From Planctomycetaceae bacterium (GTDB taxonomy: Bacteria; Planctomycetota; Planctomycetia; Pirellulales; UBA1268): 50,018 nucleotides of DNA. The notes below the pieces were generated by a model, which ran no database searches, was not told where the DNA came from, and was given only the letters and a program-made list of their open reading frames with translations. The DNA lies in NCBI GenBank assembly GCA_011523305.1, contig WTHB01000128.1, positions 1-50,018 on the forward strand, given 5' to 3'. Position numbers and translations under genes: made by a program. Shown piece by piece: positions 31,786-38,970 of the stretch; within the stretch, counting starts at the first letter, position 1, and each line of letters begins with the position of its first letter.

Positions 31786-34281
31786 CTACACGTCGAGGTT
31801 CCGTACGTCGAGCGCGTGCCGCTCGATGAACTCCCGACGCGGCTCGACCTTCTCACCCATCAGCACGCGGAAGAGGTCGTCTGCGGCAGCCGCATCGTCC
31901 ATTGAAACCCGCAACAGGGTGCGGTTGGCCGGATCGAGGGTGGTCTCCCGAAGTTCCTCGGCATTCATCTCACCCAGCCCTTTGAAGCGGGTGATCGAAA
32001 GCCCCTTCTCCCCAGCCCGACGGACCGCCGCCAGCAGGCCCCGCAGATCCTCGATGCCAATTTCATTCTCACCCCGGCGGAGGAGATAGCGGGGTTCTTC
32101 GGTTCCGGTCCGATCCTCTGGCATCAGGCTTTCAATGGCGAAGCCCATCGCCTCAAGTTCCTTCAGCCCGGCATTGATACTTCTTACCTCATGGAGGTCG
32201 ATCACGATCAACTGCTGCTCGACCAACGCGTCGTTCGCCGCTCCACCCCCGCCCGGCTTGTTTTCATCGGCCTTGCCCGCTTGAAGTTCCCCACCGGTTG
32301 CCTCCTCCTTGCTTTCTACAAAGGCCTCCAGTTCATCGCGACTGGTGAACCAGTGCTCCTCGGTGCCAAAAAAGACGTGGTACATCGGCAACTTGCCGCT
32401 CCCCTCTTCCCGCCGCCCGGCATGGTCCCGGAGGCTGATCCCCCGGCGTTCCAATGCCAGCAGGGCATCCTCAAGGCCCGCCAGGGTGCGGCAGAGTTTT
32501 TGCATCCCCTCGCCGGCTATCTCTCGACCATCACCGGGTAGGAAGACGCCCTCGCCCAGGCCCTGGTCAAGCAGCTGGTTCTTCATCTCCTCTTCAGTCT
32601 GCACGTAGTAGGTCTGCTTCTTGCTCCGCACTCGAAAGAGCGGGGGCTGGGCGACGTAGACATGGCCAGCCGCGACCAGTTGATACATCTGCCGATAGAA
32701 AAATGTCAGCAACAACGTCCGAATGTGGGAGCCGTCGACGTCGGCGTCGGTCATGATGACCACCTTGTCATATCGTCGCTTGCCGAGATCGGCCTCCGGT
32801 CCAATGCCTGCCCCGATGGCCGAGATCACACTCCGCACCTCTTCATTGGCCAGCACCTTATCTTCCCGGCTCTTGTAGGCATTGATGATTTTTCCCCGCA
32901 GTGGCAGGATCGCCTGATACTCACGGAGCCTGCCACCTTCGGCCGAGCCACCGGCGGAATCACCCTCCACCAGATAGAGTTCACAGCGTTCGACGTCCTT
33001 GCTGGTGCAGTCGCGGAGTTTGCCCGGCAGGCCACCCCCAGAAAGGGCACCTTTCCGTTCGCGGAGGAGTGCCTTTGCCTTCTGGGCGGCCGTCCGCGCC
33101 TCAGCGGCCAGCACCCCCTTCTGAACGATTGCCTTGGCACTCTTGGGATGCTCTTCGAGGTACTTGCCGAGGAACTCACCAACCGCCGAGTTGATGATGC
33201 TCTCGACCTCGCTGTTTCCAAGTTTTGTTTTGGTCTGCCCTTCAAACTGTGGATGGGGCACCCGCACACTGACCACTGCGGTCAGTCCCTCACGGACATC
33301 ATCTCCGGTCGGAATGAGATCCTTGTAGATGCCGCTTTTCTTCCCATAGGCATTGATGCTCCGGGTCAGCGCTGAGCGAAATCCTGAGACGTGTGTGCCC
33401 CCTTCGTTCGTCGAAATATTATTGACGTAACTGTGCACATTCTCCGTAAACTCGCCGGTGTATTGCAGCGCGATGTCCCAGGAAACCCCTTCGTTTTCTC
33501 CTTGCAGAGCGATCACATCTGGATGAATGGCATCACTTGAGCGGTTGAGCCATTCAATGAATTCCTCCACGCCCCGTTCGTAGAAAAACTCCTCCGTCTG
33601 GCCACTGGCTGCGTCGGTGAAGACAATCTTCACCCCAGAATTGAGGAAGGCGAGTTCCTGGAGCCGCCGCGAGAGAATGTCCCACGAAAACTTTGTCTGT
33701 GGAAAAATCTGCGGGTCCGGCTTGAACGTTGTCTTCGTCCCTGTCCCGCTGGCCGTTCCCATCTTGCGGACCGGACCGGTCGGCTCACCCCGTTGATACT
33801 CCTGCTGCCAGACGTGCCCCTCTCGGGAAACCTCGACCTCGCACCACTCGGAGAGAAAGTTCACCACCGTCACACCGACCCCATGGAGACCGCCTGACGT
33901 CTGGTAGGCCCCCTTCTCGAACTTGCCCCCAAATTTCAGCACCGTCATCACCCCTTCCAGGGTGGAAACCTCCCGGTCCATTTCCTCGGAAAGTTGCTCG
34001 TGAATGTCTGTCGGAATACCTCGACCATCGTCCTCGACTGTCACACTACCATCGACGTTGACCGTCACTGTCACCCGCTTGGCATATTCAGCCATGCATT
34101 CATCGATCGAATTGTCGACCACTTCGTAGACCAGATGATGCAACCCACGGGCGGTGTTGTCACCGATGTACATCCCAAATCGCTCGCGGACATGCTCGCG
34201 ATCGGAAAGATGCTTCAGATCCGTACTGGTGTAGCCAGCCTGGTTTTGGTCGTCAGCAGGAGCAGGTGTAGCGTCGGCCAT
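31786..34281 (-). CDS. gyrB: DNA gyrase subunit B
   Basis: MYIGDNTARGLHHLVYEVVDNSIDECMAE, GRGIPTDIHEQ, LVEGDSAGGSA, MTDADVDGSHIRTLLLTFFYR, ITRFKGLGEMNAEEL. Confidence 0.98.
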   Translation of the reverse strand: MADATPAPADDQNQAGYTSTDLKHLSDREHVRERFGMYIGDNTARGLHHLVYEVVDNSIDECMAEYAKRVTVTVNVDGSVTVEDDGRGIPTDIHEQLSEEMDREVSTLEGVMTVLKFGGKFEKGAYQTSGGLHGVGVTVVNFLSEWCEVEVSREGHVWQQEYQRGEPTGPVRKMGTASGTGTKTTFKPDPQIFPQTKFSWDILSRRLQELAFLNSGVKIVFTDAASGQTEEFFYERGVEEFIEWLNRSSDAIHPDVIALQGENEGVSWDIALQYTGEFTENVHSYVNNISTNEGGTHVSGFRSALTRSINAYGKKSGIYKDLIPTGDDVREGLTAVVSVRVPHPQFEGQTKTKLGNSEVESIINSAVGEFLGKYLEEHPKSAKAIVQKGVLAAEARTAAQKAKALLRERKGALSGGGLPGKLRDCTSKDVERCELYLVEGDSAGGSAEGGRLREYQAILPLRGKIINAYKSREDKVLANEEVRSVISAIGAGIGPEADLGKRRYDKVVIMTDADVDGSHIRTLLLTFFYRQMYQLVAAGHVYVAQPPLFRVRSKKQTYYVQTEEEMKNQLLDQGLGEGVFLPGDGREIAGEGMQKLCRTLAGLEDALLALERRGISLRDHAGRREEGSGKLPMYHVFFGTEEHWFTSRDELEAFVESKEEATGGELQAGKADENKPGGGGAANDALVEQQLIVIDLHEVRSINAGLKELEAMGFAIESLMPEDRTGTEEPRYLLRRGENEIGIEDLRGLLAAVRRAGEKGLSITRFKGLGEMNAEELRETTLDPANRTLLRVSMDDAAAADDLFRVLMGEKVEPRREFIERHALDVRNLDV

Positions 34282-34338: not shown

Positions 34339-34689
34339 TCAGTCCTGGCCTGAATCAATCAGCAGACGGCAACGAATGTCGGTGATGCCCTCGCCGGGCA
34401 CCCGGGCCTGCAATTTCTTCAGCAAATCGCGTTTGTGAAATCCCATTTCTTGGACGAGGGCGGAATGGCTGACAAACACCTCCAGCACACCCCGTCGCAC
34501 CGTGCCGGGTTGAGACCCACCACGAAAACTGAGGGGGACCACGTCGTTCCAGGCGTTCCTCAACGCATCGCTGCCCTGTTGGCGGTCGTAGCCCGTTCGG
34601 GCCATGAGGCGATTGAGGAGGCTGCCAAGCGAACGAGGATCGTTCATCAGGCCGGTGTCCCAGCGGAGTGGTTGACGAAGGACAAGCAT
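34339..34689 (-). CDS. DUF721 (DciA-like) protein
   Basis: LGSLLNRLMARTGYDRQQGSDALRNAWNDVV...VRRGVLEVFVSHSALVQEMGFHKRDLLKKL; between dnaN and gyrB. Confidence 0.85.
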   Translation of the reverse strand: MLVLRQPLRWDTGLMNDPRSLGSLLNRLMARTGYDRQQGSDALRNAWNDVVPLSFRGGSQPGTVRRGVLEVFVSHSALVQEMGFHKRDLLKKLQARVPGEGITDIRCRLLIDSGQD

Positions 34690-34707: not shown

Positions 34708-35820
34708 TTAGTCAGCCGCCAACGGCATGACGCAGTAGCCATACCCGTCCTCGGTACGACAGACACAGGCGCTCTGCCCGTCAGTGAGTTCAACATCAAT
34801 CGTGGTCGCCGGGTCGAACACCCGCAGAAACTCGTTCACAAACCGGGGATCAAGTTTGATCTGCACCGTCTCACCGCTGTAATCAATCGGCATCTCAACG
34901 CGACTCTGACCGCTCTCCGCAGACTGCCCGGACAACACCAATTGGCCCGATTCGAAGGTGAAGTCGACACCCTTGGATTGTTCGCTGGTCACAATCGCTG
35001 CCTGCCGCACCGCCGAGAGCAACGGACCGGCAACCAGTTTCACGGTGACGGCATCAGGCCGATCGGGGAACACATCCCGCCAGCGGGGAAAGCGTCCCTC
35101 GACCAAGCGTGCGGAAATGGTCGTATGACCGGTGTGAATGAGGATGTCGCTGCCTTGGACAGCAAGTTTGACCGGCGTCTCATTGTCACCAAGGCTGCGT
35201 TCAATCAGTTGCATCGCCCGGGCTGGCACAATCGGCTGGGTGGCAGGTGGCTCGCCCCCCTGCACCGCAGCGGGGCCTTCCATCTTGGCCAGCCGACGCC
35301 CGTCGGTTCCGACAGCGATGACACTCGCATCGGTCAATTCAACCAGGACCCCACCGAGGGCATATCGGCTCGACTCGTTATCCGTCGAAAAGACCGTCCG
35401 TCGAACCAGTTCGCGTACCAGCGGTGTCGTCAGTTCAAAGCAGGCATCACTGGGAAAGGTCGCCACGGAGGGAAACTCGAGTGGATCCTCAGCAGGGAGT
35501 CGAAACTGGCTCCGCGCCGCCTTGACGAGCGTCGCGTTGCCGTCTGACTCAATCTCGAAGGTGGTGCCTGGGGGACTCTCCCGCACGATCGCCATCAGCC
35601 TGGCACTGGGCAGCAAGACACTCCCGGCAGCCGACGTCTCAACCCCTTCAACCTCCGTGCGAATCCCGATCTCAAGGTCAGTCGCTGACAGAACTGCTGT
35701 GGCCCCATCAACATCAAGTTTGACGTTGGTCAGGACCGGCTTGGGCGAACGGGAAGGAACAACGGCCGCGGCCGTCTGCAAGGCCGCCAACAACGGCTCA
35801 CGCGTGCAACGCAGATTCAT
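34708..35820 (-). CDS. dnaN: DNA polymerase III subunit beta (sliding clamp)
   Basis: MNLRCTREPLLAALQTAAAVVPSRSPKPVLTNVKLDV; VKLAVQGSDILIHTGHTTISARLVEGRFPRWRDVFP; C-terminal CVCRTEDGYGYCVMPLAAD; start ATG 35820. Confidence 0.96.
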   Translation of the reverse strand: MNLRCTREPLLAALQTAAAVVPSRSPKPVLTNVKLDVDGATAVLSATDLEIGIRTEVEGVETSAAGSVLLPSARLMAIVRESPPGTTFEIESDGNATLVKAARSQFRLPAEDPLEFPSVATFPSDACFELTTPLVRELVRRTVFSTDNESSRYALGGVLVELTDASVIAVGTDGRRLAKMEGPAAVQGGEPPATQPIVPARAMQLIERSLGDNETPVKLAVQGSDILIHTGHTTISARLVEGRFPRWRDVFPDRPDAVTVKLVAGPLLSAVRQAAIVTSEQSKGVDFTFESGQLVLSGQSAESGQSRVEMPIDYSGETVQIKLDPRFVNEFLRVFDPATTIDVELTDGQSACVCRTEDGYGYCVMPLAAD

Positions 35821-36049
35821 GTGATCGCGATTTCCGCAGGAGGATGACTGAGACAACGACGCCTTCTCAGGCTCGCCAGGCTCCGGTCGAACTGAGTTCA
35901 GGAGAAGCCTGGGAATGGCGGTCTGAGGACCACTCAATCTACCCGATTTCAGCCTGTTCCGCAGGTGGTCCGAAAGGGAATTTTGCCCCTGGAAACCAGC
36001 GGCTTGGCAGCCCCGGCCCACTGCCCGAGCGGGCGGACCAAGTCTGCTG

Positions 36050-36310
36050 CTTTTATTTATAAAGAGAAAAGAAAAGAAATAGGAGAAGGCAGTAGGAAAA
36101 GTATTTGGATCATCAGTAAGAGCCCCTTGGATAACGTCCCCAACGCTGCCCGAGCGGTCGATCAATCAGGGGTTGGAGACAGGCCGAATTTCCTCAATTT
36201 CCCCGAAAGAAAACAGCTCAAACGGTCCCCATGCAGGGCTGGTTGTCGACCAAATCAGTGGTGGAAAATCTGCCGAAAGCATGTTGGCTGATTGTTGAAA
36301 ATGGTTGCAG
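36050..36310. other. Candidate oriC element: AT-rich tract plus near-consensus DnaA boxes
   Basis: AT-rich ttttatttataaagagaaaagaaaagaaatagg (about 36051-36083) in a GC-rich background; 7/9 matches to TGTGGATAA at 36104, 36126, 36260, 36293, all one orientation. Confidence 0.4.
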
Positions 36311-36520
36311 AAGGCTGCCTCAAACCGGCTGGATCAGCCGTGGCTGGTCTGTTCGAGAAGAGTCAGGGAAGGGGGCCTGTCACGGTTGCTGGCATGCTGG
36401 CAGGCGAGAGGAGTGAACGTCAGGCTTTGGTGGGGGGACTGACCAGCCTTGGTCGAGACTGTTGCTGGGAACACATCCGACAGGCACTCGACAGCACAGC
36501 CAACATCTTTCCAGCAGCGT

Positions 36521-37537
36521 TCACTTTCCTGCCGCATGGGTGAGCTTATCGAGAATGGTTTGCAGATCGCCAGCATAGCCAGCATCCTGACGGAGGAGTT
36601 TGGTGGTCACCTTCAAACTGTGGAGCACGGTGGAATGGTCACGACCGCCAATCGCCCTGCCGATCGCATGGCTACTCAGGTCCGTAAGCAGGTGGGCACA
36701 GTGGATGGCCAGGCTCCGTGGGCGAACATGGCAGCGACGCTGGGACCCGCCTGTAATGTCATCCGATGTGATCCCGTGGTACCGGGCAACAGTTGAGAGA
36801 ATACGTCGGATCGTAGGCGGCGAGGCTGGCCTGGCGATCTGGCTGCGGGCAGGTGAGGCCGTCTTGGTTCCTGCTGGTCGCGTTGGGGGAACTGGGGCTG
36901 GATCAGCAGCATTGCCCAGCGGGATCAGCAGCCCTGCAGCCAGCCTGGATTCGACAGCGGGATGCAGACTGAGGGTGGCGGGATGGCCCGGCAGGGTGAC
37001 CGCAAGCAGGGTGGGTGTGTCGAGAATAGCGTCGATGAACCGACCCAGAAGCAGGTGATCGTCCTCTCGCTTACCTGCCAGATCGATGCGATCGATCAAG
37101 ATGAGTGTTGGGGGACACGGCGGTCGCGACCGAGACGGTCGTGAGGGTCGCAGATCGACCCGCTCGATGCCGAGTCCGGCCTGAAGCGGGGTGATTGAAC
37201 CGCTCGATCGGGCTCGCCTCAGTTCTTTGGTGAGGTGGCGGCCGTCGCAGCGGATGATCTCCGGTATCTGTCGGCGACGGGACCGGCGAGCCCGTACCTG
37301 CCAGGCTTCGGCTGTGGTCTGCAGCCAACCTGTCCGAGCCTGGGAATGGTTCCCAACACCGACCAGCAGCCGACCACGCGGAGGCCAGGCAGCGGCCTTG
37401 GGAGCAGTGAAGAGGTGATCAATGGCCTCAGCCGTTGCAGCCTGTGGGAGGTCGTCGAGCCAGGTTCCCGGCTTCGATCGCCCTCTGCCTGGGGAGATCG
37501 GGTGCGGTCGGGTGCGTGTGGCAAGGACCCGTGACAT
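36521..37537 (-). CDS. dnaA: Divergent chromosomal replication initiator DnaA-like protein
   Basis: Domain IV: RILSTVARYHGITSDDITGGSQRRCHVRPRSLAIHCAHLLTDLSSHAIGRAIGGRDHSTVLHSLK; degenerate AAA+ region; adjacent to dnaN; start ATG 37537 (track start 37591 is GTG). Confidence 0.85.
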   Translation of the reverse strand: MSRVLATRTRPHPISPGRGRSKPGTWLDDLPQAATAEAIDHLFTAPKAAAWPPRGRLLVGVGNHSQARTGWLQTTAEAWQVRARRSRRRQIPEIIRCDGRHLTKELRRARSSGSITPLQAGLGIERVDLRPSRPSRSRPPCPPTLILIDRIDLAGKREDDHLLLGRFIDAILDTPTLLAVTLPGHPATLSLHPAVESRLAAGLLIPLGNAADPAPVPPTRPAGTKTASPARSQIARPASPPTIRRILSTVARYHGITSDDITGGSQRRCHVRPRSLAIHCAHLLTDLSSHAIGRAIGGRDHSTVLHSLKVTTKLLRQDAGYAGDLQTILDKLTHAAGK

Positions 37538-37659
37538 GGTCGAACCCAGAATGCACGCCGGAAACGCCCTCAGCACGTCCGTGCCACCCACTCTCAGGCT
37601 GATTCCCGCCAGCCCGTCCCAGCGGGAGTGAGCCTACGGCATCTGCTGCTGCCTGGCAA

Positions 37660-38847
37660 TTACGAGCCAGTCAGTCCCGCTCGCTGGCCACACTCCTGGA
37701 GCAGTGGCTGGAGCCGGGAAAGGGCCTCGGAGATCGTATCCGGAGTCGTGGTGGAACCGTAACTGAACCGCACGGCTGCTTGAATGATGGACTCAGGCAG
37801 GTTCATGGCCACCAGGGCCGGGGCTGGTTCGTGGGACCCGCTTGCACAAGCGGTTCCGGTGGCGACGCAGACACCGACGAGATCGGCAGCCATGACGAAG
37901 GCCTGGCGGTCGATGCCGGTGAGGGCGATGGTCGAGAGGTGCGGGCTGCGGGGTCTTCCGCTGCCGACGATCTGGGCGTCGATTCCGGCTGCTGCTGCCA
38001 GGCGAATCAGCCTGTGTTCGAAGTCATTCTGAAGTGTGGCAAGTCGTTCGGCTTCGGCCTGTTGGCGGCTGCTGGCGAGTCTGACGGCGACACCACAACC
38101 GGCGATCAGGGCGACCGGCTCGGTGCCGCCGCGTTGGGCGAGTTGCTGGCTGCCTGGAAACAGCGGTCTGAGCTGAGTGCCTGGCTGTGTGATCAGGCAG
38201 CCAATGCCCCGCGGCCCACCGAATTTATGGGGGCTGAAACTGAGGCTCGAACAGCCGAGTGAGGAGAAGGCAACAGGCAGCCGCCCCACCGCCTGGGTGG
38301 CATCAGTGTGGACGTCACAGGACACTGCGGTTGTGGCGATCACCTGGAGGAGTGCCGGTACGTCTTCAATGGTGCCGGTCTGCCCGCAGACCAGCGTGGT
38401 GGTCAGCAGGCGAGGCTGGTCGTTGCCGGTCTGTTCCAGCCAGACTGCCACACCTTGGCGATCGAGACAGCCATTCGCATCAAGAGGAAGCAATGCGTTT
38501 TGAGCAAATGGATGAGCCGCTGCCGCTGCCCGTAGGCTGTCGTGATCGCGGCTGGTGGTGGCAATCAGGCCAAGGGTGCTGTCGTCTGGCCGGCTCAGGC
38601 TGTGGAGCGCGAGGGCGTTGGCCTCGGTTGCTCCCGAGGTGAACACCAGCCCCGCGGCGGGGCAACCGAGGGCGGCCAGAATCTGCTCCCGCGCGTCATC
38701 GACCACCCGCCGGGCCCGCCGGCCGACAGCATGGGGGCTTGAGGGGTTCCCAAAACAGTCACCCTGAACCTGGGCAATGCGTTCGGCCACTTCCGGGTCG
38801 ACCGGCGTGGTGGCAGCATGGTCGAGGTACAGTTCACGGGCGTTCAT
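37660..38847 (-). CDS. Cysteine desulfurase/NifS-like class V aminotransferase
   Basis: LYLDHAATTPVDPEVAERIA, FTSGATEANALALHS, DATQAVGRLPVAFSSLGCSSLSFSPHKFGGPRGIGCL, ATGTACASGSHEPAPALVAM. Confidence 0.93.
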   Translation of the reverse strand: MNARELYLDHAATTPVDPEVAERIAQVQGDCFGNPSSPHAVGRRARRVVDDAREQILAALGCPAAGLVFTSGATEANALALHSLSRPDDSTLGLIATTSRDHDSLRAAAAAHPFAQNALLPLDANGCLDRQGVAVWLEQTGNDQPRLLTTTLVCGQTGTIEDVPALLQVIATTAVSCDVHTDATQAVGRLPVAFSSLGCSSLSFSPHKFGGPRGIGCLITQPGTQLRPLFPGSQQLAQRGGTEPVALIAGCGVAVRLASSRQQAEAERLATLQNDFEHRLIRLAAAAGIDAQIVGSGRPRSPHLSTIALTGIDRQAFVMAADLVGVCVATGTACASGSHEPAPALVAMNLPESIIQAAVRFSYGSTTTPDTISEALSRLQPLLQECGQRAGLTGS

Positions 38848-38970
38848 CGGCAAATCGGCCCGGGCAGGCTCGTTGAACGACACTGGGCTGACAGGCACCT
38901 GGGTGTACCTGTCAGCCCAGCACGTGGATGGTGGGTGCGACCCACGAAATGGAGCAACCGCACAGGGGCG

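Follow-up and report, generated by a model that had tools for sequence, protein, structure and literature searches.

The bacterial initiator DnaA is commonly viewed as one ATP-operated switch. Hda (HdaA), the DnaA-derived AAA+ protein of RIDA, lacks both domain I and domain IV. It acts on ATP-DnaA together with the clamp, and it binds ADP (PMC5742627). GafY/HdaB of Caulobacter, a homologue of DnaA domain IV, binds promoters and activates the genes of the gene transfer agent (PMC9632790), and in some cyanobacterial lineages dnaA has been lost and replication runs without DnaA (PMC7198777).

The gene described here lies in a stretch of 50,018 nucleotides (hereafter the window) from a planctomycete of the order Pirellulales (contig WTHB01000128.1). 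It encodes, on the minus strand, a short DnaA paralogue of 356 codons from a GTG start (36521..37591) that is made up of an AAA+ remnant and DnaA domain IV; the alternative ATG start at 37537, which was used in the original prediction, gives 338 amino acids. Its neighbours, likewise on the minus strand, are the sliding clamp gene dnaN (34708..35820), a DUF721-type reading frame with conserved synteny between dnaN and gyrB (34339..34689), which from its position and general knowledge we take to be DciA-like, gyrB itself (31786..34281) and, as a conserved upstream neighbour, a nifS-like cysteine desulfurase gene (37660..38898). The gene order nifS - short DnaA - dnaN - DUF721 - gyrB is present in the window and across the order. 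A second, diverged nifS - short DnaA - dnaN - gyrB copy occurs in the bin of the window's genome on a contig of 6128 bases (L007; G000:C106, hereafter C106), with 90% identity to the window in dnaN and 48% in the short DnaA. A true paralogue is disfavoured here, given the same synteny and the divergence of both dnaN and the short DnaA, and the bin probably contains a second species, whose version of the locus this would be.

With DnaA proper (TIGR00362; PF00308 plus PF08299) the window protein shares a homologous AAA+ core and domain IV, the place adjacent to dnaN and a putative arginine finger, but it has no P-loop, no lid and no domain I. Like Hda, it is a DnaA-derived AAA+ protein without domain I, and its gene neighbours dnaN; unlike Hda, it has domain IV and no nucleotide site. 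GafY/HdaB, which is perhaps related to NCBIfam PRK06030, likewise reuses DnaA domain IV in a protein without an ATPase, but the window protein retains a folded AAA+ core and has no known link to a gene transfer agent. A family profile search with the window protein returned no match to Hda or PRK06030. The cyanobacterial case is similar in that a dnaA gene turns dispensable and disappears in some lineages of a group, and different in that full-length DnaA stays in the planctomycete genomes searched.

A Pfam search of the short DnaA matched Bac_DnaA_C alone (PF08299; residues 262-327, 65.4 bits against a cut-off of 31.5), Bac_DnaA (PF00308) and DnaA_N being absent even at E<=1, and against TIGR00362 the protein scored 63.9 bits, below the equivalog cut-off of 343.9. 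The matched domain IV (36611..36808, minus strand), which includes GGRDHSTVLHS, superposes in the structural model on 1J1V at 0.8 A. These results, with dnaN on the same strand, bear out the original prediction of a DnaA homologue that keeps domain IV beside dnaN and has no domain I. A profile comparison with hhalign against 22 P-loop-keeping relatives, which are the order-level short paralogues, aligned 263 columns with a score far above chance (99.9% probability, E 2.4e-33). An AlphaFold model computed with 18 family members has a mean pLDDT of 80.5 and contains a five-stranded AAA+ core (strands 74-79, 111-116, 162-167, 194-200 and 221-224) with its helices, followed by a loose linker and then by the helices of domain IV. 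Neither the alignment nor the model shows an AAA+ lid (domain IIIb) or its sensor 2; a low-confidence linker at residues 225-260 (36812..36919, minus strand) takes the place of the lid, as had been proposed. The top PDB matches of the model in Foldseek are DnaA structures, and the whole-model TM-scores are low (0.34-0.38) because, in our view, the domain orientation is undefined and the lid is missing. From its retained domain IV, the short DnaA looks able to bind DNA.

The profile alignment sets RLLVGVGNHSQARTGWLQ of the short DnaA opposite the P-loop NPVVIIGPSGSGKTRAL of the order-level paralogues, and the place of the lost P-loop (Walker A) is residues 74-92, RLLVGVGNHSQARTGWLQT (37316..37372, minus strand), the position from which the original prediction had reported it missing. 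The Walker B region reads LILIDRID (about residues 162-169; 37085..37108, minus strand; from the alignment and the AlphaFold model), in which a single acidic residue remains, and sensor 1 reads VTLPGHP, both departures being as first described. None of the seven intact orthologues from the window's genus, a set that includes the C106 copy and the window's own gene, has a P-loop, so there is no hidden normal Walker A, and a sequencing frameshift masking one is ruled out. The profile alignment and the genus orthologues thus agree with the claim that the ATP-binding motifs have been lost; judged from its sequence, the AAA+ core is real but ATP-dead, binding of ATP being predicted to be no longer possible.

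A complete DnaA is encoded elsewhere in the same genome. A 623-residue reading frame on contig C171 matches Bac_DnaA (E 5e-37) and domain IV, with a domain I match just under the Pfam cut-off (23.3 against 24.6 bits) and a TIGR00362 score that is also under the equivalog cut-off (303.3 against 343.9 bits). Its motifs are intact: Walker A reads GPSGVGKS, Walker B LVVDDLQF, sensor 1 ASDR, the arginine finger GRI and sensor 2 NRL. A full-length DnaA match was obtained in 59 of the 59 genomes searched, this one included (a fragment only in G030). The short gene is therefore not the sole initiator, and the earlier suggestion that initiation might proceed here without an ATP-controlled DnaA does not survive. 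The combination that the original prediction had set against itself, a canonical dnaA elsewhere with the dnaN-linked copy decaying in relatives, was found in part: there is a complete copy on C171, and sister genera have an eroded short copy or none, but the intact copies of the genus are under purifying selection. Eleven aligned full-length DnaAs of the window's family carry the domain IV signature GRRSHSTV, and the short paralogues of the order carry GGRDHTTV or close variants of it.

The dnaN-DUF721-gyrB locus carries a short DnaA that lacks domain I across Pirellulales, of which Rubripirellula (L313) is a named example, and also in Planctomycetales. In the latter order its gene, coding for about 340 residues, comes first in many chromosome records and lies upstream of dnaN - DUF721 - gyrB in most of the cases fetched. 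In the phylum sample the majority of genomes hold at least two Bac_DnaA_C genes; a contig scan by the universal domain IV motif returned mostly ordinary DnaAs. In an 88-protein tree, which was quickly made, has long branches and leaves out the window protein, the short DnaAs of both orders fall on one side of a branch (99% SH-aLRT), apart from the full-length proteins, and the full-length DnaAs of the two orders group together (97%). The window protein resembles these short dnaN-linked DnaAs, for which no name was found, in synteny, in the lack of domain I and in domain IV, and in the same tree its P-loop-keeping relatives group with them. Outside the window's family, the order-level short DnaAs all keep Walker A and mostly keep the lid, and most of them are without the arginine of sensor 2 and the aspartate of sensor 1; in the window's genus both Walker A and the lid are gone. 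In this genome the window gene represents an old second lineage of DnaA in the class, on which no paper was found in the literature searched, most subscription journals being outside its coverage. Many order-level short DnaAs (L058, L062, L066, L069, L071, L073, L075 and L076) contain, N-terminal to the AAA+ domain, a hydrophobic peptide resembling GV(F/L/V)x(I/L)P(L/F), a vague pattern that is loosely like the clamp-binding QLSLPL but without its Gln.

Within the window's family the short DnaA erodes in steps: it has both P-loop and lid in one genome (G010), the P-loop without the lid in genera g4 and g8, and neither in the window's genus, g6, two g3 genomes and g10, while 13 genomes from g3, g5, g7, g9, g11 and g12 yielded no homologue at this position. 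Walker A is kept in 6 of 18 family members. On a GyrB+DnaN tree these states of P-loop, lid and gene require at least seven changes, and the P-loop-bearing g8 is nested among lineages without a P-loop, so there have been at least two losses of the P-loop if P-loops were not regained. The lesions themselves differ: P-loop residues have been substituted in the window's genus, g6 has a deletion of one residue and L048 of two, and L053 and L055 carry other changes. In two fragmented drafts (G001 and G004) the reading frame is broken, and the G001 gene, with more than one lesion, looks like a pseudogene. Since the gene is missing in 13 sister genomes and broken in these two, it is not essential in the family. 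The window gene is one stage of a repeated loss of the ATP site within the old second DnaA lineage.

The short DnaA changes rapidly: GyrB and DnaN of the window and of the sister genome G004 are together 94% identical, but their short DnaAs are about 45% identical before domain IV and 64% within it. In the pairs with unsaturated synonymous change, all of them without a P-loop (G009-G002, G008-G006, G008-G005 and G006-G005), dN/dS falls between 0.21 and 0.43 for the AAA remnant and between 0.10 and 0.25 for domain IV, which indicates that the intact P-loop-less orthologues of the genus are under purifying selection. We read the short DnaA as a constrained but dispensable gene. The arginine-finger equivalent, Arg216 in SRLAAG (codon 36944..36946, minus strand), is the same in every one of the 18 family members, and the SRLxxG around it falls, in the alignment, on the part of DnaA that carries the arginine finger (Arg285 in E. 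coli). The E. coli residue, which lies opposite the protein's own ATP site, recognises ATP on the neighbouring protomer (PMC5742627). Such a finger arginine may also act in cis by stabilising the fold (PMC8287927), so the invariance of Arg216 is no proof of a role in trans. The domain IV signature residues Asp318, His319 and Thr321 are kept, and an ungapped alignment to 1J1V places Gln284 at the position of E. coli Arg399, the residue by which that protein recognises the 5' part of the box; this substitution may weaken box binding.

One TTWTCCACM site is present in the window, the DnaA-box-like TTTTCCACC between the short DnaA and dnaN (36260..36268, minus strand), and there are no classical TTATNCACA boxes in the window. 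When seven genus loci are aligned, the TTCCAC core of this site is unchanged amid an otherwise weakly conserved region. DNA between the paralogue and dnaN or upstream of dnaN contains 22 TTWTCCACM sites in 31.9 kb, where base composition predicts 0.81; the remaining 575 kb of the same loci contain 17. This enrichment and the invariant core make the paralogue-dnaN locus a plausible predicted DnaA-binding region. The box is also present upstream of the full-length dnaA in most genus members, with 10 sites in 10.5 kb over the whole family (0.21 expected), and the enrichment could therefore reflect full-length DnaA alone. Box and paralogue co-occur in the family (8/12 against 1/13; Fisher p 0.004), but p is 0.24 when each genus is counted once, and since the association fades at this level it is only suggestive. 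In seven genus members (L078, L079, L081-L084 and L088) TTTTCCACC itself lies 70-237 bases upstream of the full-length dnaA reading frame, which suggests autoregulation through the box. A second conserved stretch, ATCrGGTArATT, perhaps a promoter element, lies upstream of the dnaN start in 7 of 7 genus loci (35821-36520 in the window; L007, L038, L039, L041, L042 and L043).

The reading that we prefer, and to which we give an even chance of being correct, is that the short DnaA is an ATP-blind DNA-binding accessory of the full-length DnaA, possibly acting via its arginine finger. Domain IV of the short DnaA would dock on the DnaA-box-like sites between the short gene and dnaN, in what is the probable dnaN promoter and possibly part of oriC, and full-length DnaA would perform ATP-dependent opening and helicase recruitment. 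Less certainly, the arginine finger might touch ATP on an adjacent full-length DnaA and cap, nucleate or inactivate its filament, by analogy with Hda or with delta-prime, the ATP-less subunit of the clamp loader. An accessory role is favoured because AAA+ homology runs through the remnant (by hhalign, AlphaFold and Foldseek), because a motif-intact full-length DnaA is present in the same genome, because selection is purifying in pairs that all lack the P-loop, because Arg216 is universal in the family while Walker A is kept in only a third of it, because the boxes are enriched with an invariant core, and because synteny is kept across the order. Against it, the boxes may belong to full-length DnaA alone, Gln284 may impair binding, the finger may act in cis, and the gene is absent or broken in relatives.

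Such absences and breaks are what would be left by a dispensable second DnaA in decay, which, with constraint relaxed once full-length DnaA carried initiation, lost its lid, its P-loop and in places the whole gene, the window showing a late stage with residual function at most. This account, which we consider somewhat unlikely, agrees with the lack of a detected homologue at the locus in the 13 genomes from six family genera, the broken frames of G001 and G004 and the low identity to the sister genome before domain IV compared with GyrB and DnaN, but it fits poorly with dN/dS well under 1 in both parts of the intact members, with seven intact reading frames in the genus, and with the survival of the finger arginine and the domain IV core through different P-loop lesions. 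Selection on the AAA+ core and the finger arginine also exceeds the needs of a bare DNA-binding protein, which argues against a plain transcription regulator acting on the dnaN-gyrB region or on other genes, in which domain IV would do all the work and the AAA+ remnant would be a fold or dimer scaffold making no contact with full-length DnaA. We judge such a regulator unlikely, although domain IV is the most conserved part, the boxes lie upstream of dnaN, and GafY/HdaB, a domain IV homologue acting at promoters in Caulobacter, is a precedent (PMC9632790). The strong form of the original prediction, a sole initiator working without ATP, has in its favour the usual dnaA place beside dnaN; it is improbable in the extreme, given the motif-intact full-length DnaA in this genome and its relatives and the lack of the short gene in many of those relatives, and the second DnaA rejects it in practice.

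An extension that we regard as decidedly unlikely is a two-subunit bacterial initiator in which origin recognition and ATP chemistry would be split between two proteins, somewhat like ORC or the clamp loader. Its parts, on an equally doubtful footing, would be a full-length DnaA with the ATPase, domain I and the altered GRRSHSTV, and a P-loop-less partner with the classical GGRDHST and a trans-acting finger. Two DnaAs per genome, one of which repeatedly sheds its ATP site, provide a natural dissection of which parts of DnaA still serve a purpose in the absence of ATP, and they occur in a phylum for which little description of replication control was found. They also carry a warning for annotation: the gene beside dnaN in such genomes is not the full-length DnaA, and anyone who places the chromosome start by it, or draws conclusions from it about the control of initiation, can be misled.

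Coarse sampling of GC skew covered four single-contig genomes, each at 20 places with 20 kb per sample; in G051, and less cleanly in G041, the apparent origin is weakly placed nearer the short gene and the apparent terminus near the full-length dnaA, and the skew of G058 and G040 is too noisy to place an origin. In genus g8 (L050 and L051; G016 and G025) nifS and the short DnaA gene are together turned round with respect to dnaN - DUF721 - gyrB. A contig labelled Candidatus Kuenenia (CAMBSN010000071.1, L258) looks mis-binned, its locus grouping inside the window's family on the GyrB+DnaN tree, and its short DnaA is also without a P-loop.
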